Below are positions 261 to 12,863 of a stretch of 29,734 nucleotides of DNA, piece by piece (the first letter of the stretch is position 1; every line of letters starts with the position of its first letter). Below the pieces are notes generated by a model. It did not search any database. It had not been told where the DNA came from and saw only the letters and a program-made list of their open reading frames with translations. The stretch comes from an uncultured bacterium (lineage in GTDB: Bacteria; Hydrogenedentota; Hydrogenedentia; Hydrogenedentales; CAILVY01). The stretch is from NCBI GenBank assembly GCA_937951485.1, contig CALEDJ010000067.1, positions 1 to 29,734 on the forward strand, written 5' to 3'. A program made the position numbers and the translations under genes.

Positions 261-1559
261 TCATTTCAGATTACTTTGGAGGGAGTGGTAGATCGTCAGC
301 ATTTCATCCGCGGCGCGGCTGATGTCGAAATGTTCCAGCACAGACTCCCGCCCCCGTTTACCCATCGCGCGCGTGCCTTCCGGGTCTGTCAATACCTTGC
401 GCAGCGCTTCCACCAGTCCGTTGTCCTGGTCGGGGTCATAGATGACGCCGCCCCCCGTTTTCCGGACGACCTCCGGATAAGCGCCCGCGCGGGGCTGCAC
501 CACGGGAATGCCGCGCGCCATAGCCTCGATCAGTTGAATGCCGAAGGCTTCGCCCTTGGGCACAGGGACGGAAAGCACGGTCAATCCCTTGAAAAAAGAA
601 GGATTCGGCGCAGTCTGGAAGGAACGTTGCAGCGTGACCGCATCGCTGAGATTCAATTGGGCCAGACGGCCCTCCAGTTTGCTCAAATAGGGTTGGTCCG
701 CCGGGGTGGCACCGCCCGAGGCCACCAGGCGGAGTTCCTTGAAGGCCGGGTCCTGCTTGAGTTTTATGAAGGCTTCAATAAGGATTCCCAGCCCCTGGGC
801 TTCATTCAGGCGGGAAAGAAAACCAATGGTGGGCGGCGTGAAGGAAGGGCCTTCAAAAACAGTGCCCGCGGTTTCAACACCGGGATACACCACGGCCATG
901 CGTTCACGGGGAATGCGCATCCGCTCGGTCATCAGGTCCGCATACCAGCGGCTGGTGGCGATGAATTTCCCCACATACCCGCCGAGCCGCGCCATGGCAT
1001 CCCAGCAGCGCCGGTCATAAGGCGGGCGCATGGCGTCCACCCACGGGGCTTCATCCTGAAGGCTGCACACAAACGGCGTGTCAAGGACGTCCCGGATGGC
1101 GGGGACAAAACCAAGCAGGAGCGCGTTGGAAATGTGGATGATGTCCTGGCGGGGTTGTTGGACAAGCCACCCAAGGAACCGGTCATATTCCCTCCGCTGT
1201 CTGCCGCCCCGGCCTTCCAGCATCGAAAGCGTCATCGCGCCGAGTTCCGCCGCGTTGGTTGAACCTTCCTGCCTGGCGGCCCGGCGGAGCGCCCAGGGCG
1301 TATCAAAAATGCGCTCAAGCCACCGGGGAGCATGACGAAACAAGGGGATTTTCTCGCGGAGATAGACGTTGACACCGCCGAAAAAAATGGGGGCGCGCCC
1401 TGCTGTGTCTTCGAAATCACCGAACATCGGCAAATACAGCGGGACAACCACCGCGTCGTGGCCCCGCGCGCGCAACGCGCGCACCAGCATCAGGTCTCGC
1501 AGGCAATTCTGACAGTAGAAGGAACCCCCGCTGCCCGGAATCAGGTGGAGTATCTTCAT
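261..1559 (-). CDS. GT4-family glycosyltransferase with N-terminal CxxC
   Basis: A 432-residue retaining glycosyltransferase with the GT-B fold is predicted, transferring a sugar from a nucleotide sugar to an unknown acceptor in the cytosol. The N-terminus (MKILHLIPGSGG) is the usual first strand and glycine loop. The C-terminal half has GFLSRLNEAQGLGILIEAF at about 246-264 and the E-x7-E signature E337/E345 in EAFGIQLIEA, followed by GIPVV. The start at 1559 is chosen because its ATG overlaps the upstream TGA as ATGA; an in-frame ATG at 1616 would add 19 residues and a 61-base overlap. It is the last gene of the redox operon. Cys16 and Cys19 form a CQNC motif just after the glycine loop, unusual for a plain GT4 enzyme. 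No membrane segment is seen. Donor and acceptor cannot be told from sequence. Confidence 0.85.
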   Translation of the reverse strand: MKILHLIPGSGGSFYCQNCLRDLMLVRALRARGHDAVVVPLYLPMFGDFEDTAGRAPIFFGGVNVYLREKIPLFRHAPRWLERIFDTPWALRRAARQEGSTNAAELGAMTLSMLEGRGGRQRREYDRFLGWLVQQPRQDIIHISNALLLGFVPAIRDVLDTPFVCSLQDEAPWVDAMRPPYDRRCWDAMARLGGYVGKFIATSRWYADLMTERMRIPRERMAVVYPGVETAGTVFEGPSFTPPTIGFLSRLNEAQGLGILIEAFIKLKQDPAFKELRLVASGGATPADQPYLSKLEGRLAQLNLSDAVTLQRSFQTAPNPSFFKGLTVLSVPVPKGEAFGIQLIEAMARGIPVVQPRAGAYPEVVRKTGGGVIYDPDQDNGLVEALRKVLTDPEGTRAMGKRGRESVLEHFDISRAADEMLTIYHSLQSNLK

Positions 1560-2998
1560 TCCCGTTCCTCGTGCGTTCGGATCGCCAGGGCCGCCGTTGG
1601 ACACGCCCGGGCGCATGCCTCGGCCAGAGGTCCCAGTCCCGCTGCCAACGGGCCGCCGAATGCGGGTCGCGGATACGAACCCAGTCCCCGTCCCGTCATG
1701 GTCATGCCGAGTGGCAGCCCTGCCGCCCGCGTCATTTCAACACATATTCCGCATCGGATGCACTTTCCCGTCTCAAAGATCACCTCGCCATACCGTTCGA
1801 TGGGCAACAAGGACATGCGCGGCATCGTCCTCCGTATTTGCGGCGCCAGCCCGTATTCTTCGGCGTACTGCCGCAATTTGCAAGTGACGATTTTGTGGCA
1901 ATCGCAATGTAGACACCGCGCGGCTTCCCGAATAAGCGCGTCCGTACTGCCGGGGGGGGAGGGCTGAAGGCGCTCCACGGCATATGCCGGAAGTTCCGCG
2001 GGTTCCAGGCGCGGCCCCAACGTGGAATTGAACATTTTCGCCGGGGGTGGCGGCACGCCGCGAAGAAATGCATCGGCGGCGAATGCGGCCTTTTTTCCGT
2101 GACCCACGGCGCGCACCGCCATAACGTCTTCGGGCGCGTCAAAAACCCGACCATCCTCTGCATGTTCCAGGCCGCAGGCCACAATCACCGCATCGTGCAC
2201 TTCCAGTAAAGCGTTCAGAGTATCAACCGCTTCGCCGAAGTGTGTCTCCACGCCGATACGCTGAACCGCCGCTATTTCGGCATCAAGGATTTCCGGCGGC
2301 AGTTTCTCCGCCGGCAGGCCGCGCAGGGCGGCGCAGGCGATGTCGCGTTTTTCGTAAACCCGGCAGGCATGTCCCCGCATCACCAGGGTCCACGCGGCCG
2401 CCAGGCCCGCCAATCCCGCCCCCACCACCGCGACGGATTGGCCGGTTTGTCCTGCTGCAATCGGAAAGTCTCCGGGCGTTTCACCGAGAAAACGGTGTGC
2501 ATGTCGTATCTCAATCGTCTTGTCGTACTGCTTGCGACGGCACACGCGCTCACAGGGCGCGCTACATACGCAACCGAGCGTCGCGGGAAAGACCAGGTCG
2601 CGCTTTGCGAGTCGCGCCGCCGCATCCGCATCGCCGGCGGCGATGTAGCGCAGCATCCGGGGAATGTCAAGTCCCGCCGGACACATCCGCGAACACGGCC
2701 CTTCACAATCACCCACGTGCTCATTCAGAAGCATCGTCAGCGTTTCGCGCCGCGCGGCCATGACATCATCGTCCGTGGTGCAAATCTCCATGCCGTCTTC
2801 CGCCGCCACCGCGCAGGAAGGCACAAGCCGTCCTGTAGCGAGGTCTTTGACCACGCACAACATGCAGGAAGTCAGCGGACCCGTTTCTTTCAGATAGCAG
2901 AGGGTTGGAATCTCGATGCCCGCTGCGCGGGCGGCCTCGAGCAGGGTGGCACCCCCGGCGACTTGCATCTCGCGGCCATCCATTTTCAGACGCGGCAT
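1556..2998 (-). CDS. GltD-like flavo-iron-sulfur protein with NuoG-like [2Fe-2S] N-terminus
   Basis: A 480-residue cytosolic electron-transfer subunit. In order: a ferredoxin fold (about 1-75) with [2Fe-2S] ligands C34, C45, C48 and C62, as in NuoG and HoxU; a GltD/dihydropyrimidine-dehydrogenase type Fe-S domain (about 90-170) with C98, C102, C106, C143, C145, C149 and C153; an FAD-binding Rossmann start, VAVVGAGLAG, at 189-198; and a C-terminal Fe-S region with C362, C365, C367, C373, C413, C416, C419 and C466. After the GltD-like VHDAVIVACG at 268-276 the sequence goes almost straight to KKAAFAADAFLRG, so the second Rossmann domain that binds NADPH in GltD seems deleted. The start (ATG at 2998) shares one base with the preceding TAA (TAATG). 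It probably pairs with the NuoEF-type fusion just upstream. Confidence 0.85.
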   Translation of the reverse strand: MPRLKMDGREMQVAGGATLLEAARAAGIEIPTLCYLKETGPLTSCMLCVVKDLATGRLVPSCAVAAEDGMEICTTDDDVMAARRETLTMLLNEHVGDCEGPCSRMCPAGLDIPRMLRYIAAGDADAAARLAKRDLVFPATLGCVCSAPCERVCRRKQYDKTIEIRHAHRFLGETPGDFPIAAGQTGQSVAVVGAGLAGLAAAWTLVMRGHACRVYEKRDIACAALRGLPAEKLPPEILDAEIAAVQRIGVETHFGEAVDTLNALLEVHDAVIVACGLEHAEDGRVFDAPEDVMAVRAVGHGKKAAFAADAFLRGVPPPPAKMFNSTLGPRLEPAELPAYAVERLQPSPPGSTDALIREAARCLHCDCHKIVTCKLRQYAEEYGLAPQIRRTMPRMSLLPIERYGEVIFETGKCIRCGICVEMTRAAGLPLGMTMTGRGLGSYPRPAFGGPLAAGLGPLAEACARACPTAALAIRTHEERE

Positions 2999-5382
2999 TA
3001 TTCCACCTTCACAGCGCCGACCGGACACACCTCGAAGCAGGCGTGGCAGCGTACGCATTTGGACATGTCAATTTCATGAACGCGATAAGGCGCGGGCCGG
3101 ATAGCGTCCGAGGGACACCGCTGCGCGCATTTCGTGCAGCCGATGCAGTTCTCTGTAATGGAGTAAGTAATCAGCGCCTTGCACTTGTGCGCCGGACATC
3201 GGCCTTCAACGTGCGCTTTGAATTCGTCCCGGAAATAGCGCAACCCCGTGAGGACAGGGTTGGGCGCGGTCCGGCCCAGCCCGCACAGACTTTGTTTCCT
3301 GATGGCCGGGGCAAGGCGTTCGAGTTCCTCCAGGTCCTCCGGCTTGCCTTTGCCGGTGCAGAGGCGGTCGAGGATTTCGAGCAGCATTTTCGTGCCGACC
3401 CGGCAGGGCACACAGCGCCCGCAGGATTCGAGTTGGGTGAACGACAGGAAGTAATGGGTCATCTCGACCATGCAATCCGTATCGTCCATCACCACGAAGC
3501 CGCCCGAACCCATCATCGAACCGGCGGAAAGCAGGGCCTCGAAGTCCACGGGCAGGTCGGCCAGTTCCGCCGGGATGCAGCCGCCGGAAGGCCCGCCTAT
3601 CTGCACCGCCTTGAGGGTGCGCCCTTCAGGGACGCCACCGCCCACCGCTTCGACAATCTGCCGCACTGTCAGGCCCATGGGCACCTCGATCAGGCCGCCC
3701 CGCCGGATTTTCCCGGCAAGAGAGAAGACCTTGGTGCCTTTGCTTCCCGGCGTCCCGAATGCGGCAAATGCGGCCGGGCCGTTTCGGATAATCCATGGAA
3801 CCATGGCCAGGGTTTCGACGTTGTTGACCAGCGTAGGCCGCCCGTGAAGTCCCTGCCGCGCCGGGAACGGCGGTCGGAGTCTCGGCGTGGGACGACGGCC
3901 TTCAAGCGAGGCAATAAGGGCGGTTTCCTCGCCGCAAACAAAAGCGCCCGCGCCTTCGCGGACCTCGGCCTTGAAAGCATGGCGGCTGCCCAATATCCGA
4001 TCGCCCAGCAAACCGGCTTCCGCGCAGCGGCGCAACGCGCCGCGCACGCGCTCGACCGCCAGGGGATATTCCGCGCGGAGGTAGAAAATGCCATGATGCG
4101 CTCCGACCGCGATCGAGGCGATGATCATGCCTTCGATGATGCGGTAGGTGAAAGATTCGAGCATCATCCGGTCCATGAACGCTCCGGGGTCGCCTTCGTC
4201 CCCGTTGCAGATGATGATTTTGGGGCCACCCGGCGCATCGCGGACCGCCCGCCACTTGCGGGCGGCAGGAAAGCCCGCCCCGCCCCGCCCGCGCAAACCG
4301 CTTTCCTCGATGACCGCGATGACGGCCGGGGGATCAAGCGGCATTCCTTCCTGCGGCGGCGGGCCGCCCAACGGAGCCAGACAGCGGCGCAATGCGGCAA
4401 AGCCGCCCCGACGCTGGTATTCCTCAAGGTCCGTCGGGTCGGCTTCGCCGCAGGATTCCGTGGCAATGCGGAACTGAACCCCGAGAAAATCCTCGACCGC
4501 AGGACTGTCGGGGCGGATGGCGTGGCGTTCCGGCGCGCTATCGGTCTCATCCGTGTACAGCCGCTGCAGCCAGGTATCCGTCGCGGCGCGCAGCCGGGCA
4601 AGCGGTTTCCGGGGCGTGAAATGGGCGAGCACCAGCGACGGCACGTCTTCCGCCCGGACTTTCGCGTACGTGATTGGCGATCTGTCGGGGAAAACTATCT
4701 GAACCATCGGCGTCTGGTGGCACATGCCCACGCAACTGACGGGTTTGATGCGGACACCCAATCCGAAACGGTCGCAGGTTTCAAGCAGTGCCTGCCGGAT
4801 TTGTCCGCTGCCCCCGGCCACACAACACGAACCGAGACCGATGCGCAGTTCGGCGGCGGTGACGGGTTCGGCATCTCCCTGTCCCTCCCCGCGTCGGTCT
4901 TTTTTGTCCCTGTGCGCCTGGAAATCTTCCAGAATGCGCGGGGCCATTTCCGGGCGGACGTGGCCGTAGGTCACGTCATCAATCTGCACGGCGGGCGCCA
5001 GCGTACAGCACCCGAGACACCGCACCATTTGCAGCGTGAAATTGAGGTCGCGGTCCGTGTCTTCGCCGGGCGCCAACCCCAAGGTTTCGGCCAAGGCTTC
5101 GTGCACGTCCGGCGCACCTTTGAGATGGCACGCCGTGCCGTCGCAGACCGATATGGTGTGGCGGCCCGCCGGTCGTCGCCGGAACTGCGGGAAAAAGGTG
5201 CTGACGCTGTCCACATCTGCGGGTGTGATTTCCGTCACTTCACAGACACGCCGCAGGGCCGCCTCCGGAAGATAACGGTACCGGCGCTGCAATGCGTGAA
5301 GAATCGGGATTAGCGCATCCCGGCCGGTGCCGCATTCCGCTACAAGGCGGTCCACGTCGGCGATGTCAATTTCCGGAGTCAT
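2998..5382 (-). CDS. NuoE-HydB/NuoF fusion, NAD(P)H-oxidising iron-sulfur flavoprotein
   Basis: A 794-residue fusion expected to exchange electrons between NAD(P)H, FMN and Fe-S clusters. Residues 1-160 are NuoE/HydC-like with [2Fe-2S] ligands C80, C85, C122 and C126. Residues 180-260 are a second thioredoxin-like [2Fe-2S] domain as in the HydB N-terminus, with cysteines at 186/187, 217 and 221. Residues 290-720 are NuoF: GLRGRGGAGFP at 362-372 and CNGDEGDPGAF at 392-402 (FMN/NADH loops), GAFVCGEETALI, and [4Fe-4S] ligands C654, C657, C660 and C700. The C-terminus carries two ferredoxin clusters, C746/C749/C752/C756 and C776/C779/C782/C786. HydB and HydC are usually separate genes. The start at 5382 overlaps the upstream gene by 17 bases; an upstream ATG at 5520 would add a basic, non-homologous tail. 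Whether it bifurcates electrons is unknown; no [FeFe] hydrogenase gene is present. Confidence 0.93.
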   Translation of the reverse strand: MTPEIDIADVDRLVAECGTGRDALIPILHALQRRYRYLPEAALRRVCEVTEITPADVDSVSTFFPQFRRRPAGRHTISVCDGTACHLKGAPDVHEALAETLGLAPGEDTDRDLNFTLQMVRCLGCCTLAPAVQIDDVTYGHVRPEMAPRILEDFQAHRDKKDRRGEGQGDAEPVTAAELRIGLGSCCVAGGSGQIRQALLETCDRFGLGVRIKPVSCVGMCHQTPMVQIVFPDRSPITYAKVRAEDVPSLVLAHFTPRKPLARLRAATDTWLQRLYTDETDSAPERHAIRPDSPAVEDFLGVQFRIATESCGEADPTDLEEYQRRGGFAALRRCLAPLGGPPPQEGMPLDPPAVIAVIEESGLRGRGGAGFPAARKWRAVRDAPGGPKIIICNGDEGDPGAFMDRMMLESFTYRIIEGMIIASIAVGAHHGIFYLRAEYPLAVERVRGALRRCAEAGLLGDRILGSRHAFKAEVREGAGAFVCGEETALIASLEGRRPTPRLRPPFPARQGLHGRPTLVNNVETLAMVPWIIRNGPAAFAAFGTPGSKGTKVFSLAGKIRRGGLIEVPMGLTVRQIVEAVGGGVPEGRTLKAVQIGGPSGGCIPAELADLPVDFEALLSAGSMMGSGGFVVMDDTDCMVEMTHYFLSFTQLESCGRCVPCRVGTKMLLEILDRLCTGKGKPEDLEELERLAPAIRKQSLCGLGRTAPNPVLTGLRYFRDEFKAHVEGRCPAHKCKALITYSITENCIGCTKCAQRCPSDAIRPAPYRVHEIDMSKCVRCHACFEVCPVGAVKVE

Positions 5383-7132
5383 GCGGATTCTCAACACAGA
5401 CCAGTTGTTCTTTGGTGCGGATGTATATCCGGCCGTCCGTGAAAGCCGGCGTCGCGACGGTTTCCTGTCCGAGTTTCGGTTCGCCGAGGAGTTCGTACGA
5501 ATCGCCCGGACGGAAGACATACCCGCTGCCCTGCTTGTCTATGGCGTAAATTTTATCGCCCATAAAAATGGGAGAGGAATAGAATCCCTCGTCATATTCC
5601 TCGAACCAGGCGACCTCGCTGGTTTCCGCGTCGAGACACACAATCTCGCCCCGCGAGGTGGCGATATACAAATGGTTTCCGACGGCCAGCGGGCTTGCCA
5701 CATCCGGCAGGGCTTCGTACCACTGCCACACGATTTCCGGAACAAGGGTATCGCCGTCCCGGTTGATGCGGATGGCGGTGGCGTCGGAGTATTCAGACGC
5801 GACATAAAACATACCGTTTGCATATGCCGGGCCGGTGGCCACTTCCCCGCTGAGGCATTCCACCTGCCAGAGTTCCCGTCCGATCATCGGGTCATAGGCG
5901 CGCACATCCTTGGAGGATACCAGCACAAGTTGCGGACCGAAGGCCGTCTGGACATACGCGGGAGAAGCCCAGGAAATGGTGGCGCGGGGAACGGTCCAGA
6001 CTTCCCGCCCGCTCTCAATGTCGAGCGCCGACAATTTGCCGTTGCTTCGCTGGTCATATTGAACGAAAAGCAAATTGCGGAACGCCAGCAGGGATGAGGA
6101 ATGGCCGTAATGATTGTCCGGCACGCCGAGATTCCGGCCCCATTTCACATCGCCGTCGGCGTCCACGCAGACCAGGTCGCCGTTGGCAAAGATGGCGAAT
6201 GCGCGGTCCTCCTGCACCGCCATTGTGGGCGCGGCATACCCCGTTTCTTTGAGAACCTTTGGCGCTTCGGCGGGGGTTCCCGCCAATGGCGGTGCGGCGC
6301 GCCGCCAGAGCATCTCGCCGGACTCCGTGTCAAAACAATAGATTTCCCGGGACGCCGCGTCGGCTCCGCTGACATACAGCCGGTTCCCCCAAAGCACCGG
6401 CGAGTTGGTTCCCGGCAGGGGGATTTCGGCGGTCCAGCGAATATTGCGTCCCGATGCCAAATCCCAGTCCACCGGGGTGTTGGTGTGAATGCCCACGCCA
6501 TAGCCGCCGGGTCCCCGGAAAGACGGCCAGTTTTGTTGCATTGTTTCCCAGTCCGGATAGGCGCGCTCCGCGACCACCGTCGTTTCCGGTGGCTCACCCG
6601 CGGGCCGATCCTCCGGAACAGGGTAATCCAGTCGCGTGAAATAGGCGGCCGCCAGCGCGGCCAGCACCCAGAGCGCGCCGGAGAAAGAGAGCAGTTCGCG
6701 CGCCCGGGCGCGCGTCAGCCAGTAGGACGCTTCGGGCGGCGGCAGTTCGGCGGGCTGGGGAACCTTCGGGCTGCATCGCGCTGCAATCCGCCATGCGATA
6801 ACCATGACGACCACGCCGCCGAGCAGGAGATAAGCGCCCATATTGAGATGACGCTGGCTGGTGAAGAAGGCCTTTCGCGCGAGGAGGTCCATGGCGCGGA
6901 TTTCCTGGACAAGGCGTTCGTCGGCTTCGGGCGCTTGCGCGAGTTGGCGGCGGAGTTCGAGCATCTCCGGATTGTCCAGGGGATTGATGGCCTGGATTTG
7001 CAGGTAATTGACAATCAACAGGGTCGCCACGCTCAGGGAGAACAGCCCCGAAACCGTCGCCACCCCCACCGCCGCCCACCATCCCGCATCGTATGCTGTG
7101 AAACGCTTCGCTTTTTTTTCAGGCCGCAACAT
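5366..7132 (-). CDS. Three-TM membrane-anchored PQQ-like beta-propeller protein
   Basis: A 588-residue protein with three predicted membrane helices (about 18-44, 98-118 and 148-166) and a C-terminal BamB/PQQ-like propeller from about residue 200. The Lys/Arg-rich N-terminus and the RARAR patch before TM3 favour a cytosolic N-terminus and a periplasmic propeller. The segment between TM1 and TM2 is charged and probably helical. The propeller starts with NWPSFRGPGGYGV and has repeated blade motifs such as YCFDTESGEMLW and CLDAETSEVAWF. I see no catalytic calcium or PQQ ligands typical of quinoprotein dehydrogenases, so a binding, scaffold or sensor role is as likely as catalysis. The start at 7132 has GGAG ten bases upstream and overlaps the preceding gene by 14 bases; the ATG at 7162 lacks a ribosome site. 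Confidence 0.85.
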   Translation of the reverse strand: MLRPEKKAKRFTAYDAGWWAAVGVATVSGLFSLSVATLLIVNYLQIQAINPLDNPEMLELRRQLAQAPEADERLVQEIRAMDLLARKAFFTSQRHLNMGAYLLLGGVVVMVIAWRIAARCSPKVPQPAELPPPEASYWLTRARARELLSFSGALWVLAALAAAYFTRLDYPVPEDRPAGEPPETTVVAERAYPDWETMQQNWPSFRGPGGYGVGIHTNTPVDWDLASGRNIRWTAEIPLPGTNSPVLWGNRLYVSGADAASREIYCFDTESGEMLWRRAAPPLAGTPAEAPKVLKETGYAAPTMAVQEDRAFAIFANGDLVCVDADGDVKWGRNLGVPDNHYGHSSSLLAFRNLLFVQYDQRSNGKLSALDIESGREVWTVPRATISWASPAYVQTAFGPQLVLVSSKDVRAYDPMIGRELWQVECLSGEVATGPAYANGMFYVASEYSDATAIRINRDGDTLVPEIVWQWYEALPDVASPLAVGNHLYIATSRGEIVCLDAETSEVAWFEEYDEGFYSSPIFMGDKIYAIDKQGSGYVFRPGDSYELLGEPKLGQETVATPAFTDGRIYIRTKEQLVCVENPHDSGN

Positions 7133-8393
7133 CGTTGGGTTTCTCCACCGGGCAATAGGCAAAACATCGCCCGCAACTCAGGCATGCGCCTCGGTCTATT
7201 TCATAATCCGGGCTTTTACGGATAACCGACAGCCGGACCATGCGCCCCCAGAAGGCCAATCCCAGAAACACGCCAAAGGCGGCGCTTGCGGCCCTGAAAC
7301 GCCGTCTGACCGCATCGGCTTGCGCATAGAGTTCCGCCGGCGACTGCTGACTCGCGTGAAACGCCTCGCTTTCAATCGTTAAATCGCCGAAATCGCCCCG
7401 CTGCTCCGCCGCGATACGCTCCGCAAGAAGAATCACCGGATGCAATCGCGACAGCAAGGGATGCGCAAGCACTCCGGCAAGTCCCGCCGCTGCAATCACC
7501 AACGGCATCGCCGCCAGCATCCACCCCAGCCGCCGTGCGCCGGCGCGCCGGGGTTCAGATTGGACAGCCGGGGTTGGAAGATTGATGGCGTTGTAGGGGC
7601 AGGACGTCTCGCAGAGACGGCACTGAATGCACTCGGCGGGCGTCACCGAGGCATGTCGGCGGGAGAAGATGGACGCCCAGCGCAGCAATACGCCATAGGG
7701 ACAGAGAAAACGGCAGTAGGGCCGAGCGATGAAAATGCCGATGACCAGCAGCACGCCGCCCGCCATCAGCATGTTGAAACTGCCGCCCAGGCGGAAAAAG
7801 CCGACAAACGGATCATAGCGGCAGATGAGGAACCCCGTGCCCGTGTACAGGCCAAGCATCGCGAGGCCAAGGTAGGCATAGGCGAACATGCCCAGCACAT
7901 TTTCCGCCGTGCGGGGGATTTGCACGGGCTGAACAGCGCAGGCTTCCTGGATGGCGCCCAAAGGACAGACCGCGGCGCAAAAGACCCGCCCGAAATAGAG
8001 CGCGAAAATTAACGGCAGCAAGAAGAATATCGAAATCAGCAGCGGCACGGGCGCGCCATCGCCAATCAGGATGTTGAAAACATTTTGCGTTGCCCCTACC
8101 GGGCATACACACCCCTTCCGGTAAAATCCGAAATAGAACAGGGAAACCACCATCAGCGTCAGCACCCAGTTGCGCGAGCGGAGTTTGAGCACCGCAAAAG
8201 CCGTCAGAGCCATCAATCCCGCGAGCAAGGCCACATCCACCACCGGCGACGTCAATTTCGGGGGCGGGGCTTCCATTTGGGGCCGCTCGTAGCCCGACTC
8301 GAATTCCGGCATCGGAAAACGGTATTCGGCTCCGGCCTGGTCGCCGAGGACCGCCGCCAGCGCCAGGGTGACGAGGGCAAGACGATAGATCAT
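7119..8393 (-). CDS. NapH/NosR-like polytopic membrane iron-sulfur protein
   Basis: A 424-residue membrane protein that probably carries electrons across or along the inner membrane. It begins with a signal-like helix (1-21), then about seven hydrophobic segments near 51-70, 76-92, 116-134, 168-186, 207-224, 290-311 and 371-390. Family-typical cysteine-proline motifs are GCVCPVGATQN (C95, C97), FCAAVCPLGAIQE (C139, C143) and YCRFLCPYGV (C227, C231). Two [4Fe-4S] sites follow: C255/C258/C261/C265 and, at the very C-terminus, C404/C407/C410/C414. In NapGH-type systems such a protein passes electrons from quinol to a periplasmic ferredoxin; here the genes for an exported ferredoxin and an NADH module lie either side. 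The start at 8393 overlaps the upstream stop as ATGA; longer forms add 61 residues without homology. Confidence 0.9.
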   Translation of the reverse strand: MIYRLALVTLALAAVLGDQAGAEYRFPMPEFESGYERPQMEAPPPKLTSPVVDVALLAGLMALTAFAVLKLRSRNWVLTLMVVSLFYFGFYRKGCVCPVGATQNVFNILIGDGAPVPLLISIFFLLPLIFALYFGRVFCAAVCPLGAIQEACAVQPVQIPRTAENVLGMFAYAYLGLAMLGLYTGTGFLICRYDPFVGFFRLGGSFNMLMAGGVLLVIGIFIARPYCRFLCPYGVLLRWASIFSRRHASVTPAECIQCRLCETSCPYNAINLPTPAVQSEPRRAGARRLGWMLAAMPLVIAAAGLAGVLAHPLLSRLHPVILLAERIAAEQRGDFGDLTIESEAFHASQQSPAELYAQADAVRRRFRAASAAFGVFLGLAFWGRMVRLSVIRKSPDYEIDRGACLSCGRCFAYCPVEKPNDVAA

Positions 8394-8953
8394 CCCTCGG
8401 ATTCCTCCCCGCTCACCCATTGTTTGAACAAATAACCGCGCCGCGCCGGCACGCGCCGGATGGCATCCGAGGGACAATTCCGCGCAATCGAGCATTCGTT
8501 GCAATTGACACAGAGATCGCGTTTGATCTGCAGATGAAGCGAACCATTGCCGAACTGGCCGCAACCTTTGACGCACTTGGCGCAGCCAAAGCAGCGTTCC
8601 TCATCCACTGTATATTCGTAGAAAGGCTCCTCAATGAACTTGCGTTTGAGCGCGCCCACCGGACACAGTTCGTTTTCCGCGCCCGTATCGCGCGCCTTGG
8701 CGCCCGGTTGCAGGTAACCGCTGCACAGGTCGCAGTAGCCGCAAATCTCGTAGGTGTGGACGCATTTGACGGCGGACGGGTTCAAGACGCAATTCGTGGC
8801 GCAGCGCCCGCACTGGATGCACTTGGCGGGGTCAATCTGCCAGACCATCCCTTCCGCGTCCGGGCGGGCGGCCATCCAGGCGCCGCCGCCCGCCGCCAGC
8901 ACCGCCGCCGCGCGAATGAACTCACGCCGGTCTATTTTGTCCCTGCTGTCCAT
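8390..8953 (-). CDS. Tat-exported multi-cluster ferredoxin (NapG-like)
   Basis: A 187-residue ferredoxin with a twin-arginine signal, DRREFIRAAAVLAAGGG (R9, R10), so it should fold with its clusters in the cytosol and be exported. Cysteines are arranged for about four [4Fe-4S] clusters: C45/C48/C51/C55, C64/C71/C74/C77/C97, C121/C124/C127/C131 and C148/C151/C154/C160. This resembles NapG and DmsB-like proteins. It is the natural periplasmic partner of the NapH-like protein, with which it shares an ATGA junction. The start at 8953 is fixed by an excellent AGGAG eight bases upstream and places the signal at the N-terminus; the ATG at 9034 would bury the signal behind 27 residues. A 55-base gap separates it from the upstream propeller gene. 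Its terminal acceptor is not identified. Confidence 0.92.
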   Translation of the reverse strand: MDSRDKIDRREFIRAAAVLAAGGGAWMAARPDAEGMVWQIDPAKCIQCGRCATNCVLNPSAVKCVHTYEICGYCDLCSGYLQPGAKARDTGAENELCPVGALKRKFIEEPFYEYTVDEERCFGCAKCVKGCGQFGNGSLHLQIKRDLCVNCNECSIARNCPSDAIRRVPARRGYLFKQWVSGEESEG

Positions 8954-9008
8954 ACTTGAAACTCCTGCTGCCAATGTATCTGGTTGAGCAAGTGGGGATC
9001 TTGCCTGA

Positions 9009-10025
9009 TTAGTTCTTGGGAGCCCGTTCTTCAAAAATCAGCAACTCCCTTCGTGGACCATGCAGCACCAGGACGCGGTCTTCACTGTCCACCGCCACAT
9101 CCCTCACCAAAGCCTCTTCCTGAAAAGAGGCCGCGGCCTCGGCCAGCGTGCCGATCATTTCCGGCGTGGCGACGACGCCCAACAAGGTGGTGTCGGGGGA
9201 ATACACCTTGACCCTGTTGATGCCTTTCTCGACGGTAACCAGCGAGGCGTCACTCCGGAAGACCGCGTGAATGGGATTACAGCATCCGCTGAATCCGTCG
9301 AGTTCGATGCCGGGCCGGTACCAGGAACTCGCCAGGCTGCCGTCGGCCCTGTAATGCTCAAAGCCAAGCCTGCCCGGATTCACCACCCACAGCCCGCCGC
9401 CGGGATCCAACAGCACATCAATATAGGGACTGGGCACAACCAGGCCGGGAATATCGCGTTCAGGGTCACGTTCGCCGATTCTGTTCAGTAGATTGCCGGA
9501 GATATCGAAGCGACAAATGACTTTGTTGCCTGCGTCGGCGGCAAACACATGCTGTTCGTCCGCAACAATAGAAGTAATCCATGCGCGCGGGCCAAGATCT
9601 TGCCAAGACTGTAGATGCGTACCATGGGGGTCATGCACGGCGATGCGGGTGCGCATGCCAAGATAGAGCCGACCGTCCGGACCTTCGGCCAGACAGTCCG
9701 GCGCGCCCTCAACTGCGATGCGCCCCTTTTCGCCACCCGAAGAATCCAGCACAAGGACGGCATCCTGCCCTGCTACCAGGATCGTTCCGTCGCCGCGCAC
9801 GCACAGGGCTGTCGGCGCATCGAGATTCAGGGAGATGCGCTTTGCCTCGCGGAACAGGACCTTGGCCGGGTCCACCGCCTCATAGGGCGAAACATCGTAG
9901 AGGAGTGCAGGTCCCGGTTCGCGCCGCCGTTCCGTCAGCGCCAGCGCAAGCGCCAAGACCATCGCAGCAACGGCGAGTACAGCCCAAAGCCACGCCGGAA
10001 TCAGATGTTTTGGGATTGCGTCCAT
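9009..10025 (-). CDS. Membrane-anchored NHL-type beta-propeller with CCNP motif
   Basis: A 338-residue protein with an N-terminal membrane anchor (about 9-30, LIPAWLWAVLAVAAMVLALA) and a six-bladed NHL-like propeller that should face the periplasm. Blades are seen as repeated x-D-x-x-G-x-L/I-x-V/L patterns, for example DGTILVAGQDAVLVLD and DGRLYLGMRTRIAVHD. One blade carries ELDGFSGCCNPIHAVF, a vicinal Cys-Cys followed by Asn-Pro. This is striking in an otherwise cysteine-poor propeller and could bind a metal or form a strained disulfide. The start at 10025 shares one base with the preceding TGA (TGATG) and has GGGAG ten bases upstream. It lies directly before the exported ferredoxin gene, so a partner role in the same electron path is plausible. 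No enzymatic activity can be assigned. Confidence 0.8.
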   Translation of the reverse strand: MDAIPKHLIPAWLWAVLAVAAMVLALALALTERRREPGPALLYDVSPYEAVDPAKVLFREAKRISLNLDAPTALCVRGDGTILVAGQDAVLVLDSSGGEKGRIAVEGAPDCLAEGPDGRLYLGMRTRIAVHDPHGTHLQSWQDLGPRAWITSIVADEQHVFAADAGNKVICRFDISGNLLNRIGERDPERDIPGLVVPSPYIDVLLDPGGGLWVVNPGRLGFEHYRADGSLASSWYRPGIELDGFSGCCNPIHAVFRSDASLVTVEKGINRVKVYSPDTTLLGVVATPEMIGTLAEAAASFQEEALVRDVAVDSEDRVLVLHGPRRELLIFEERAPKN

Positions 10026-11464
10026 CAGGAAACCGCTCCCACGGAAATACATACCATTTGGGTCAAATCTCGCAAGAGCATGCGGTCGCCGACGAGGGCG
10101 ATCGGCCCCCAGGCGTCGTGTCCATGCAATACCTGTGCGCGGTCGAGTTCTTCATAGGCTGTCCGGCTGATCCGCAGCATGGTCAGTTCGCCGGTGTCCC
10201 CTAAAATGTAGCACTTTCCATCGGCAAAGAGGAACGGCCCAAGCCCGAAACGTTGGGCCTGTCCGCTGGACCATACAAGGGTCCCGTCGGGATCGTAACA
10301 GACAAACTGCGAGCGCAACGCCCCGGCATCCTTGGGCATGATGCTGTACAACAAACCGTCATAATAGATTGGGGTATGCTGTTCGGCCGCCAGGCCCTCC
10401 CTGGGACCATGCCGATAGAGAACCTCGGCTGAAAAGACCCCACCGTTTTCCTGCACACGGATCATCATGCCGCCCTCGCCGTAGCCCGCCGCGATGAAAA
10501 TCCGGCCATCCCCCAATGGAACCGGCGACGGCGCGATGACGCGCGCGTTCCACGGTATCTGCCACAGCAAAGCGCCGGCCTCCGGGCCGTCGGCGGCCAC
10601 GCCCACGACACCGCCCACGGCACTGTACACATACATATATCGGCCCGCAATGGTCGTCGGAACGACCGAAGAGTGGGACATTTTCCAACCCGGCGTATTG
10701 GGCGTGGTCCAGACCGGTTCGCCCGTCTCGCCGTCAACCGCCATCATCAATACATCGGGGCCGCCCGGCGCGAGAATCACCCGGGAGCCGTCTATGAGCG
10801 GACACTGCCCGGTGTACCAGAGCGGTTCTTCCGCGCCGTAATCCCGCTGCATGTCTATACCCCAGCGGAAGCCGCCTGTGACGGGGTCAAGGCAGACCAC
10901 ATGGCAGCGCGGTCCGATGGTCACGAGCATATCGTCGGTCACGGCGGGCACGGTGCGCGACATGCCGTGGTTTTTCTTCACGTCCACGTAATAAAACCTT
11001 CGCCAGATTTCGCGTCCATCTTCCAGCGACAGACAGCGGATGGCGTCGGCCCGTTCCTCTTCGTCGTAATCCAAGAGATAAACCCGACCATTCCAGACCA
11101 CCGGCCCCGCGTATCCTTCGCCAAGTTCCACGCTCCAAAGGATGGGCGGTCCCGAAGCGCCCCAATGATCAGCCAAGGGCGCGGATTCCTTGACGATATT
11201 GTCAAAATCGGGACCTCTGAAACGGGGCCAGGAACCTTCGCAGACGGAGGGAACGCCATCGAATGCCTGAAATACACCCACAAGGTCAACGGCCTGACGC
11301 GCGGCCTGCGACCTCGCGGGAGCGCCGTCTTTCCCCGGCAAGCGCATTTCTATATCGAAAATTGATGGCGCGGCGAGCCACTGCCACGACACAGTCACCG
11401 CCGCCAACAAGGTCACAAGACCTGTCAGGGCGGCCAGGATAGGGTATCGTGATACGTTGTTCAT
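10025..11464 (-). CDS. Membrane-anchored PQQ-like beta-propeller protein
   Basis: A 479-residue protein with an N-terminal signal anchor (about 8-30, ILAALTGLVTLLAAVTVSWQ) and a BamB/PQQ-like propeller beginning at SWPRFRGPDFDNI. Blade motifs include IRCLSLEDGREIWRR, VVCLDPVTGGFRWG and VDGETGEPVWTTP. It is a paralogue of the 11574-12863 and 13091-14311 proteins: all share the opening W-P/R-F-x-G segment, a V-W-x-T-P style blade, and an end like RMLLRDLTQMVCI. PQQ-dehydrogenase active-site residues are not evident, so this is probably a non-catalytic propeller or an unusual enzyme. The start at 11464 puts the anchor at the N-terminus, although its ribosome site is weak; the ATG at 11518 would add 18 residues. 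A 109-base gap with strong hairpins separates it from the upstream gene. Confidence 0.82.
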   Translation of the reverse strand: MNNVSRYPILAALTGLVTLLAAVTVSWQWLAAPSIFDIEMRLPGKDGAPARSQAARQAVDLVGVFQAFDGVPSVCEGSWPRFRGPDFDNIVKESAPLADHWGASGPPILWSVELGEGYAGPVVWNGRVYLLDYDEEERADAIRCLSLEDGREIWRRFYYVDVKKNHGMSRTVPAVTDDMLVTIGPRCHVVCLDPVTGGFRWGIDMQRDYGAEEPLWYTGQCPLIDGSRVILAPGGPDVLMMAVDGETGEPVWTTPNTPGWKMSHSSVVPTTIAGRYMYVYSAVGGVVGVAADGPEAGALLWQIPWNARVIAPSPVPLGDGRIFIAAGYGEGGMMIRVQENGGVFSAEVLYRHGPREGLAAEQHTPIYYDGLLYSIMPKDAGALRSQFVCYDPDGTLVWSSGQAQRFGLGPFLFADGKCYILGDTGELTMLRISRTAYEELDRAQVLHGHDAWGPIALVGDRMLLRDLTQMVCISVGAVS

Positions 11465-11525
11465 GGTAAATACAAGTGACTTTCTGGAGAACACCACTGG
11501 AACGCGAAAACCGATCACCGTTCAA

Positions 11526-11573
11526 GGCGCGGCCTTCCGTGCGCGGCGGAAAGGGCCAACGCTGTTTTCCGCG
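11526..11573 (-). other. Intercistronic alternative hairpins
   Basis: Just after the stop of the first operon gene, two mutually exclusive stems can form: GCGGAAA (11546-11552) with TTTCCGC (11566-11572), and GGCCTTCCG (11531-11539) with CGGAAAGGGCC (11547-11557, two-base bulge). No T-tract follows, so RNA processing or 3' protection of the first cistron is more likely than full termination. This is inference from base pairing only. Confidence 0.35.
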
Positions 11574-12863
11574 TCAGGGGTTCTTCAGGTCAAGACACTT
11601 CATCTCACGCTGGCTGCGAACCAGAAGCCTGCCTTGCGAGAGGGCCATGGGCGCCCAAATCTCTCTGCCGCCGAGCAGATTGACCTGGGCCAGTTCCCTG
11701 TAACCGTCGGGGGACGGTTCAATCATGCACAGGATACCCTTTTTGCCGTCAAGGTTGAAGATCAGGCCGTCGGCGAGGAGCAAAGGTCCCCGCTCGAAGG
11801 ACATCGAGAACCAGGATTCACGGGTCTTCCATTTGACTTTGCCGTCGAGCGTCAGGCACATCAGGCCATCTTCGCGCTCGTTCGAGTTGCTGTTGACATA
11901 AAGATAACCGTCATAAAACAACGGCTGTTGAATCTGGCTGCCGCAGGCGTCGGTTTTGAAGATTTCCCTAACGGAGAACCCGCCGTTTTCTTTGTTAATC
12001 CGGATCATGGCGGAACCCGCATTGTACCCGCCGGTGATGAAAATACGGTCATCGGGCAAGGCGGTGGCATAGGGGATGGGAATGCGGCATTGGAAGCCGT
12101 CGTAGGTCCAGAGAATTGTCCCATCCTCCAGCGAAATGCCGGCCACCAAGCCCTTCGTGCCGCCGCTGCGTTCAGAGGCGCTGATCATGACAGCCTGATC
12201 CACCCCGCAAAGGGTGGCAATCACGGGCGTCGAATAGCCCACGTTGCCGAGCGAGGGCGTTTTCCAGACCACTTCGCCGGTATCCCGTTTCATAGCGACC
12301 ACAAAAGCGTCGGGTGCCTGGGGGGCGACAATGACCAAATCCCCGTGAAGGGATGGGGCTTGTGTGACTCCCCACCGCGGCAAACTCACGCCGAAATCGC
12401 TCAACAGGTTCTTCGACCATACTGGCTGACGGGTCTTGCGGTCTATGCAGTGCATGTGGCCCAGCAATCCGACCGTATAAACGTATCGTTCATCTATCGT
12501 GGGTGCCGTCCGCGACCCGTCATGGCTCACGCTGCCGGGCGCCGCATAGGAAAAACTCCAGAGTTCCTCGCCTGTTTCAAGGCTGAGACAGCGCAAAACG
12601 TCTTTTTCCCGGTCCGGACGGTCCAACAAATACACCTCCCCATCTCGGACTGAGGGGGAACCGTAACCGGCGCCCAGGGACACGGTCCAAAGCACTTTGG
12701 GGCCTTTTGACGGCCAGGTGCGGGCCAGGCCGGTTTCCCGCGAGATGTTATTCCGGTCCGGACCGCCAAACTGGGGCCAGTCCGCATGGGCCAACAGCGG
12801 CCAAATGAGACATAGCGCCACCAAGAACACGACAAGATTTCTTAGTAAATGGATAGTTTTCAT
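11574..12863 (-). CDS. Secreted PQQ-like beta-propeller protein, first operon gene
   Basis: A 429-residue protein with a Sec signal peptide (MKTIHLLRNLVVFLVALCLI, then WPLLAHA, cleavage after AHA near 27) and a BamB/PQQ-like propeller. The mature protein starts with DWPQFGGPDRNNIS. Blades include LRCLSLETGEELWSF, MHCIDRKTRQPVWSK and AMKRDTGEVVWKTP, and it ends RLLVRSQREMKCLDL. It is probably periplasmic. The start at 12863 has GAGG nine bases upstream. It is the first gene of the minus-strand block and is preceded by a leader with a promoter candidate at 12931-12959. The long ordered propeller without an obvious catalytic site suggests ligand or protein binding; a quinoprotein-like enzyme cannot be excluded. 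Confidence 0.87.
   Translation of the reverse strand: MKTIHLLRNLVVFLVALCLIWPLLAHADWPQFGGPDRNNISRETGLARTWPSKGPKVLWTVSLGAGYGSPSVRDGEVYLLDRPDREKDVLRCLSLETGEELWSFSYAAPGSVSHDGSRTAPTIDERYVYTVGLLGHMHCIDRKTRQPVWSKNLLSDFGVSLPRWGVTQAPSLHGDLVIVAPQAPDAFVVAMKRDTGEVVWKTPSLGNVGYSTPVIATLCGVDQAVMISASERSGGTKGLVAGISLEDGTILWTYDGFQCRIPIPYATALPDDRIFITGGYNAGSAMIRINKENGGFSVREIFKTDACGSQIQQPLFYDGYLYVNSNSNEREDGLMCLTLDGKVKWKTRESWFSMSFERGPLLLADGLIFNLDGKKGILCMIEPSPDGYRELAQVNLLGGREIWAPMALSQGRLLVRSQREMKCLDLKNP

Follow-up and report, generated by a model that had tools for sequence, protein, structure and literature searches.

A conserved gene set of Hydrogenedentota and other phyla combining an electron-bifurcating-type NuoE-HydB fusion with a NapH-like protein, a twin-arginine ferredoxin and propellers

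The window analysed here is a stretch of 29,734 nucleotides from an uncultured Hydrogenedentota bacterium (GenBank assembly GCA_937951485.1, contig CALEDJ010000067.1, C67 in our numbering), part of a 4.5 Mb genome. Nine co-directional genes on its minus strand, running from position 12863 to 261, include a set of seven that recurs in the same order across phyla. This set unites a NuoE-HydB fusion bearing the signature of the bifurcating Bfu family and a BfuA-like subunit with a NapH-like membrane protein, a ferredoxin predicted to be exported, and propeller proteins (Table 1).

The locus and its conservation

Gene starts were refined by homology and ribosome-binding context. With these starts, six junctions overlap, by 4, 1, 17, 14, 4 and 1 bases, and the remaining two are short gaps of 55 and 109 bases. 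The layout of nine genes with six overlapping junctions described in the initial annotation is thereby confirmed, and domain scans agree with its NuoE-HydB fusion, NapH-like protein, twin-arginine ferredoxin and propellers.

Table 1. Genes at the locus, with refined coordinates in the window
Feature	Coordinates	Strand	Remarks
PQQ3, BamB-like propeller with signal peptide, 429 residues	11574..12863	-	Pfam PQQ_2; first gene of the operon; optional among relatives
PQQ2, membrane-anchored propeller, 479 residues	10025..11464	-	Core; 41-66% identity between phyla
NHL, six-bladed NHL propeller, membrane-anchored, 338 residues	9009..10025	-	Core; signature GFxGCCNP...EKGxxRxK
Fdx, ferredoxin with predicted twin-arginine export, 187 residues, 17 Cys	8390..8953	-	Core; Fer4 domains
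NapH-like polytopic membrane protein, 424 residues	7119..8393	-	Core; similarity to TIGR02163 and Fer4_5
PQQ1tm, BamB-like propeller after three transmembrane helices, 588 residues	5366..7132	-	Core; PQQ_2 8e-28
NuoE-HydB fusion (BfuC-BfuB fusion), 794 residues	2998..5382	-	Core; FMN/NAD(H) site; Fe-S sites C1, B1-B5; ferredoxin-docking domain at the C-terminus
BfuA/StnC-like electron relay, 480 residues	1556..2998	-	Core; [2Fe-2S], GltD-type [4Fe-4S], FAD half-domain, NuoG-type clusters; NADPH domain deleted
GT4-family glycosyltransferase, 432 residues	261..1559	-	Glycos_transf_1; 4-base overlap with the BfuA-like gene; frequent but optional
Divergent BamB-like propeller, 406 residues	13091..14311	+	PQQ_2; possible associate, outside the core

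Neighbourhoods were compared at 40 loci and at 80 more retrieved with a ferredoxin alignment from bacterial and archaeal genomes. The seven core genes follow the order PQQ2, NHL, Fdx, NapH-like, PQQ1tm, NuoE-HydB fusion, BfuA-like, and wherever all seven are present this order and strand are found in 20 of 20 Hydrogenedentota loci and in 34 of 35 other loci. Over 114 loci, neighbouring core-gene pairs sit side by side on one strand at least 96% of the time. PQQ1tm adjoins the NapH-like gene in 91 of the 93 loci with both and the fusion gene in 78 of 80, and Fdx adjoins the NapH-like gene in every locus that holds the two (108/108). The arrangement of the core genes is far beyond chance, and the neighbourhood sought in relatives is present across phyla. 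Record labels place the carriers in about a dozen phyla (Bacteroidota, Verrucomicrobiota, Planctomycetota, Kiritimatiellota, Lentisphaerota, KSB1, Aminicenantes, Armatimonadota, Sumerlaeota, Spirochaetota and others); the phylum labels of metagenome-assembled genomes (MAGs) are sometimes wrong, and seven carriers are named Bacteroidota strains without a MAG label. Cultured carriers include Draconibacterium sediminis, Mariniphaga anaerophila, Marinifilum flexuosum and Sunxiuqinia elliptica. The gene layout of a locus labelled Nitrospiraceae (L074) matches that of Hydrogenedentota contig G045:C213, and its label is probably wrong; a label of Bacteroides fragilis (L097) is doubtful.

The nine-gene system first proposed is reduced to these seven, since the glycosyltransferase and PQQ3 are optional. 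Of 25 Hydrogenedentota loci, 10 have a glycosyltransferase gene on the strand of the BfuA-like gene, as do at least 11 of 43 others; these counts are lower bounds as many loci end early. A close orthologue of PQQ3 (at least 53% identity) occurs in only part of the Hydrogenedentota loci, and elsewhere other propellers stand in its place. Between NHL and Fdx most relatives encode a hidden twin-arginine-like protein of about 65 residues with a four-Cys motif (for example L132, 9715-9972), which has no Pfam match; it is not at that place in the window because the 55-base gap between the two genes is too small.

Two lines of evidence indicate that the membrane genes and the Bfu genes belong to one functional system in addition to their shared order. 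First, they co-occur. The NapH-like protein is encoded in 43 of 68 Hydrogenedentota genomes at E <= 1e-10 (42 clear cases and one marginal), and with NapH, Fdx, PQQ2 and the fusion as markers, 40 of the 68 genomes hold all four, 23 none and 5 a mixture, the mixed five being assemblies in several hundred contigs. In these genomes the Fe-S and propeller genes are thus not repeatedly found apart. Fisher p-values for co-occurrence of 1e-13 to 1e-18 are overstated since the genomes are related. Secondly, and more telling than these p-values, both halves are retained where they are unlinked. G006-G009 and G020 have them on separate contigs, and in G007, G008 and G020 several kilobases of flank show them to be apart. 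Similarly, L129 and L149 have no fusion near the locus, and a system-type fusion is encoded elsewhere in the same genomes.

The split genomes could also be taken to mean that two independent systems, one a cytosolic Bfu oxidoreductase and the other made up of NapH, ferredoxin and propellers, share an operon for co-regulation only. We regard this as quite improbable, given that the halves co-occur across genomes and that the Bfu half belongs to a clade specific to the system, with a BfuA of its own that lacks the NADPH domain. Gene order, co-occurrence and unlinked retention thus give good support to the initial annotation insofar as it proposed one functional system, while we infer that the proteins form one physical complex, which way electrons flow and that a reaction takes place at the propellers.

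A bifurcating-type core with a modified relay subunit

The fusion contains 2Fe-2S_thioredx (2.3e-48), Complex1_51K, SLBB, NADH_4Fe-4S and Fer4 domains, and its best relatives in the PDB are 9bov, 9n5u (NfnABC), 8oh5 (StnABC) and the HydB subunits of NiFe and FeFe hydrogenases, with NuoF behind. Among 68 homologues, the BfuC ligands of the [2Fe-2S] cluster C1 (C80, C85, C122, C126) are kept in all, and the ligands of C1, B1, B3, B4 and B5 in at least 66. At the B2 site, C637, H724 and C729 are found in 68 of 68 sequences and C734 in 67, and position 675 is C or T in 53. For BfuB, Schut et al. 2022 (PMC9304861) give a B2 site of three Cys, one position with a Cys/Thr swap and a His; in their survey the His was missing in only 8 of 1558 BfuB sequences and was absent from non-bifurcating homologues. 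The ligands and the Cys/Thr swap among the fusion homologues match that definition. Moreover, the system fusions of all phyla (68 sequences) form one clade against six HydB paralogues, with a split support of 1.0. Judged by its residues, the fusion carries the complete electron-bifurcating BfuBC signature, from which we infer its cofactor content. Since the Bfu/HydBC signature is complete, ferredoxin would be expected as a cytosolic partner besides NADH. A c-type heme was considered and rejected, as the sole CxxCH motif sits in the cytosolic BfuB part and is a [4Fe-4S] motif.

Another NuoE-HydB fusion of 821 residues, about 42% identical, was observed at L159 (9643-12105) amid apparent CO dehydrogenase/acetyl-CoA synthase genes, and is a possible Codh-Bfu in Hydrogenedentota.

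The subunit encoded beside the fusion aligns to StnC-type chains in two parts, and the gap between them, about 190 residues long, corresponds to the NADPH domain. In 61 homologues the stretch replacing this domain is only 34-63 residues long, and none of the 61 has a second Rossmann motif; the first GxGxxG is retained in 60. Outside Hydrogenedentota the FAD domain can still be recognised in its C-terminal part, which is eroded within the phylum. The motifs of the relay clusters are retained, with the cysteines of the [2Fe-2S] cluster A1 (C34, C45, C48, C62) and those of the later clusters at 90% conservation or more. In StnABC, electrons pass from FAD through C7, C6, C5, C4 and C3 to FMN (PMC10482914). 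With the NADPH domain lost and the relay kept, the relay would therefore need another partner. NADP(H) was ruled out as a substrate on the basis of the alignment gap and the missing second Rossmann motif, and because the NADP(H) site of this GltD-like subunit is deleted, NAD(H) is favored. Consequently, the earlier assignment of a GltD-like flavoprotein is refined to one without the NADPH-binding domain, and that of an NAD(P)H module is narrowed to a predicted bifurcating Bfu core that would use NAD(H) and for which ferredoxin is also expected.

The membrane protein, the ferredoxin and the propellers

The NapH-like protein has two CX3CP motifs (C139xxxC143P and C227xxxC231P) and two 4Fe-4S motifs. 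Seven membrane-proximal cysteines, C95, C97, C139, C143, C191, C227 and C231, are found in 107 of 107 homologues, and three of these (C95, C97 and C191) are invariant positions beyond the two CX3CP motifs of NapH. Its TIGR02163 score of 37.5 bits lies under the curated cut-off of 213. Hydropathy and charges fit a topology of a signal/anchor segment followed by helices, in which both ferredoxin motifs would be cytosolic. No solved homologue of the membrane part was found, as structure matches span just the ferredoxin motifs. In Fdx the twin-arginine (RR) motif and the Cys pattern are conserved among homologues, and its 17 Cys would leave room for four [4Fe-4S] clusters. Flavinylation was ruled out, since neither an FMN-binding domain nor an ApbE motif occurs in any of the nine proteins.

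These two proteins bear on a quinone-linked alternative, according to which the Bfu module and the NapH-like protein would act as an NADH/ferredoxin:quinone oxidoreductase, or in reverse, with NapH handling (mena)quinone and with Fdx and the propellers as accessory or structural parts. Bfu enzymes with a quinone as third partner have already been proposed (Nuo-Bfu). However, a ferredoxin exported by twin-arginine translocation (Tat), with 16-17 conserved Cys and encoded next to NapH in all 108 loci that have both, makes little sense if quinone is the endpoint, and in canonical NapGH the electrons leave outward. We therefore consider this alternative unlikely.

PQQ2 has an N-terminal transmembrane helix at residues 9-27 and five Cys at 90% conservation or more; its AlphaFold2 model (predicted local distance difference test, pLDDT, 89.6) is nearest to BamB, tetrathionate hydrolase and quinoproteins. 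The model of NHL (pLDDT 90.8) has the NHL fold behind an N-terminal anchor, and of its cysteines C248 is kept in 89 of 89 homologues and C249 in 85. A fold search with both models gave no active site, the matches being generic folds only, of the six-bladed NHL and BamB-like kinds. The propellers were also considered as pyrroloquinoline quinone (PQQ) enzymes, an idea rejected on two grounds: their scores against PQQ dehydrogenase families are far under the cut-offs, and pqqC, for PQQ synthesis, is found in 2 of 68 Hydrogenedentota genomes. They are probably not PQQ enzymes.

The same two results weaken the view that electrons travel inward, from a periplasmic oxidation at the propellers to a Bfu core that would bifurcate them to NAD+ and ferredoxin. 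Bfu chemistry is reversible and the propeller folds resemble quinoprotein dehydrogenases, both of which would suit such a direction, but inward electrons would also work against the membrane potential. We judge this scheme unlikely, and outward flow appears about twice as probable as inward flow.

Proposed electron path and comparison with known systems

On balance, and with some reservation, we favor the interpretation that the locus encodes a membrane-linked Bfu enzyme wired through the NapH-like protein and the exported ferredoxin to a periplasmic partner. This is the simplest account because the NADP(H) input is lost, the relay is intact, and a membrane Fe-S protein and an exported ferredoxin are encoded alongside. 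According to this proposal, the BfuBC fusion would carry out coupled (confurcating or bifurcating) electron exchange with NAD(H) and ferredoxin in the cytosol, and the BfuA-like subunit would hand mid-potential electrons not to a soluble substrate but to the NapH-like protein, at its ferredoxin-type clusters on the cytosolic side. The invariant cysteines of the NapH-like protein would then conduct electrons through the membrane, or gate their passage, to Tat-exported Fdx, which in turn would deliver them to a periplasmic assembly of PQQ1tm, NHL and PQQ2 and a putative acceptor. Only tentatively do we extend this to a scheme in which confurcation from NADH and ferredoxin drives electrons through an Fe-S-only wire and a four-cluster Fdx to a propeller-built periplasmic reductase, which would make the system a fifth Bfu type and a cytochrome- and flavin-free route present in many phyla.

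Several observations weigh against the favored interpretation. No conserved propeller site points to a substrate, and an interaction with quinones, of which NapH-type proteins are capable, would shift the route of the electrons into the membrane. L148 (Lentisphaerae) and L147 (Verrucomicrobiota) have the membrane half, and no system-type fusion was found in their MAGs; these MAGs may be incomplete or the halves may be truly decoupled. Furthermore, physiology gives no hint, insofar that COX1, RnfC and FeFe hydrogenase are each both present and absent among system-bearing genomes, with no clear pattern when judged by eye only.

A special case of the favored interpretation is suggested by the genes downstream of the Bfu genes, where in several phyla, as well as at L152 and L155, a glycosyltransferase, a propeller, an ABC ATPase and an FtsX-type permease follow. 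The run at L152 and L155 is a possible envelope export unit, and it stays with the Bfu half in these split operons. Low-potential electrons could accordingly serve to reduce an envelope component (protein, lipid or glycan) in whose making the linked glycosyltransferase, a propeller lipoprotein and a LolCDE/MacB-like ABC transporter take part. However, the four genes are absent from many loci and no result shows a redox substrate for them; a role in envelope assembly seems unlikely.

The arrangement is not among the known Bfu types, and we found no published account of the gene combination in an open-access library (subscription papers and preprints being outside this coverage). The closest relatives are StnABC and Nfn-Bfu (Bfu Type 1; Sporomusa ovata 8OH5 and the Nfn-Bfu of Thermococcus sibiricus), which share the BfuBC core ligands, give the best PDB matches, and have a BfuA-type subunit with a NuoG-like [2Fe-2S], GltD-type clusters and an FAD half-domain. 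Unlike these, the present system has BfuB and BfuC fused, the NADPH domain of BfuA deleted and no C-terminal FdhF-like domain, and it is linked to a module in the membrane and periplasm. Schut et al. 2022 (PMC9304861) proposed Nuo-Bfu and Mbh-Bfu as membrane-bound Bfu enzymes, which likewise join a BfuABC core to a membrane module. They use the ion-pumping modules of complex I or group 4 hydrogenases, whereas here a NapH-like protein is found without pump subunits and with an exported ferredoxin and propellers. NapGH and the flavinylated NapH-like systems of Meheust et al. 2021 resemble the locus in having a NapH-like Fe-S protein with CX3CP motifs beside a periplasmic redox protein, and differ from it in that the locus lacks an FMN-binding domain or ApbE target motif, has the extra invariant C95, C97 and C191, and includes an NADH/ferredoxin module. 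Finally, bifurcating FeFe-hydrogenases of Hydrogenedentota (PMC11406978) are BfuB relatives from the same genomes, but the present system has no hydrogenase domain and its fusion falls in a separate clade; NapH, PQQ and propellers go unmentioned in that report.

If the favored interpretation is correct, the soluble and ion-pumping enzymes known in the Bfu family would be joined by one that sends electrons across the membrane, or takes them up, with neither cytochromes nor flavinylated proteins involved. The locus would also offer a concrete gene set with which to ask how Hydrogenedentota, Planctomycetota, Verrucomicrobiota and marine Bacteroidota, several of which are in culture, bring low-potential electrons to the periplasm. 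One carrier strain belongs to Labilibaculum, a cultured genus that has fermentative Fe(III)/Mn(IV) reducers among its members (PMC5760507).

As to the surroundings of the operon, a promoter scan returned fewer sites than shuffled sequence did and was uninformative. Positions 1-210 of the window hold an 88-base repeat in overlapping copies at 61-base spacing, at the contig end; because the contig ends there, genes downstream of the glycosyltransferase are out of view. On the other side, a divergently transcribed propeller is found at the equivalent place in L039, L042, L047 and L048.
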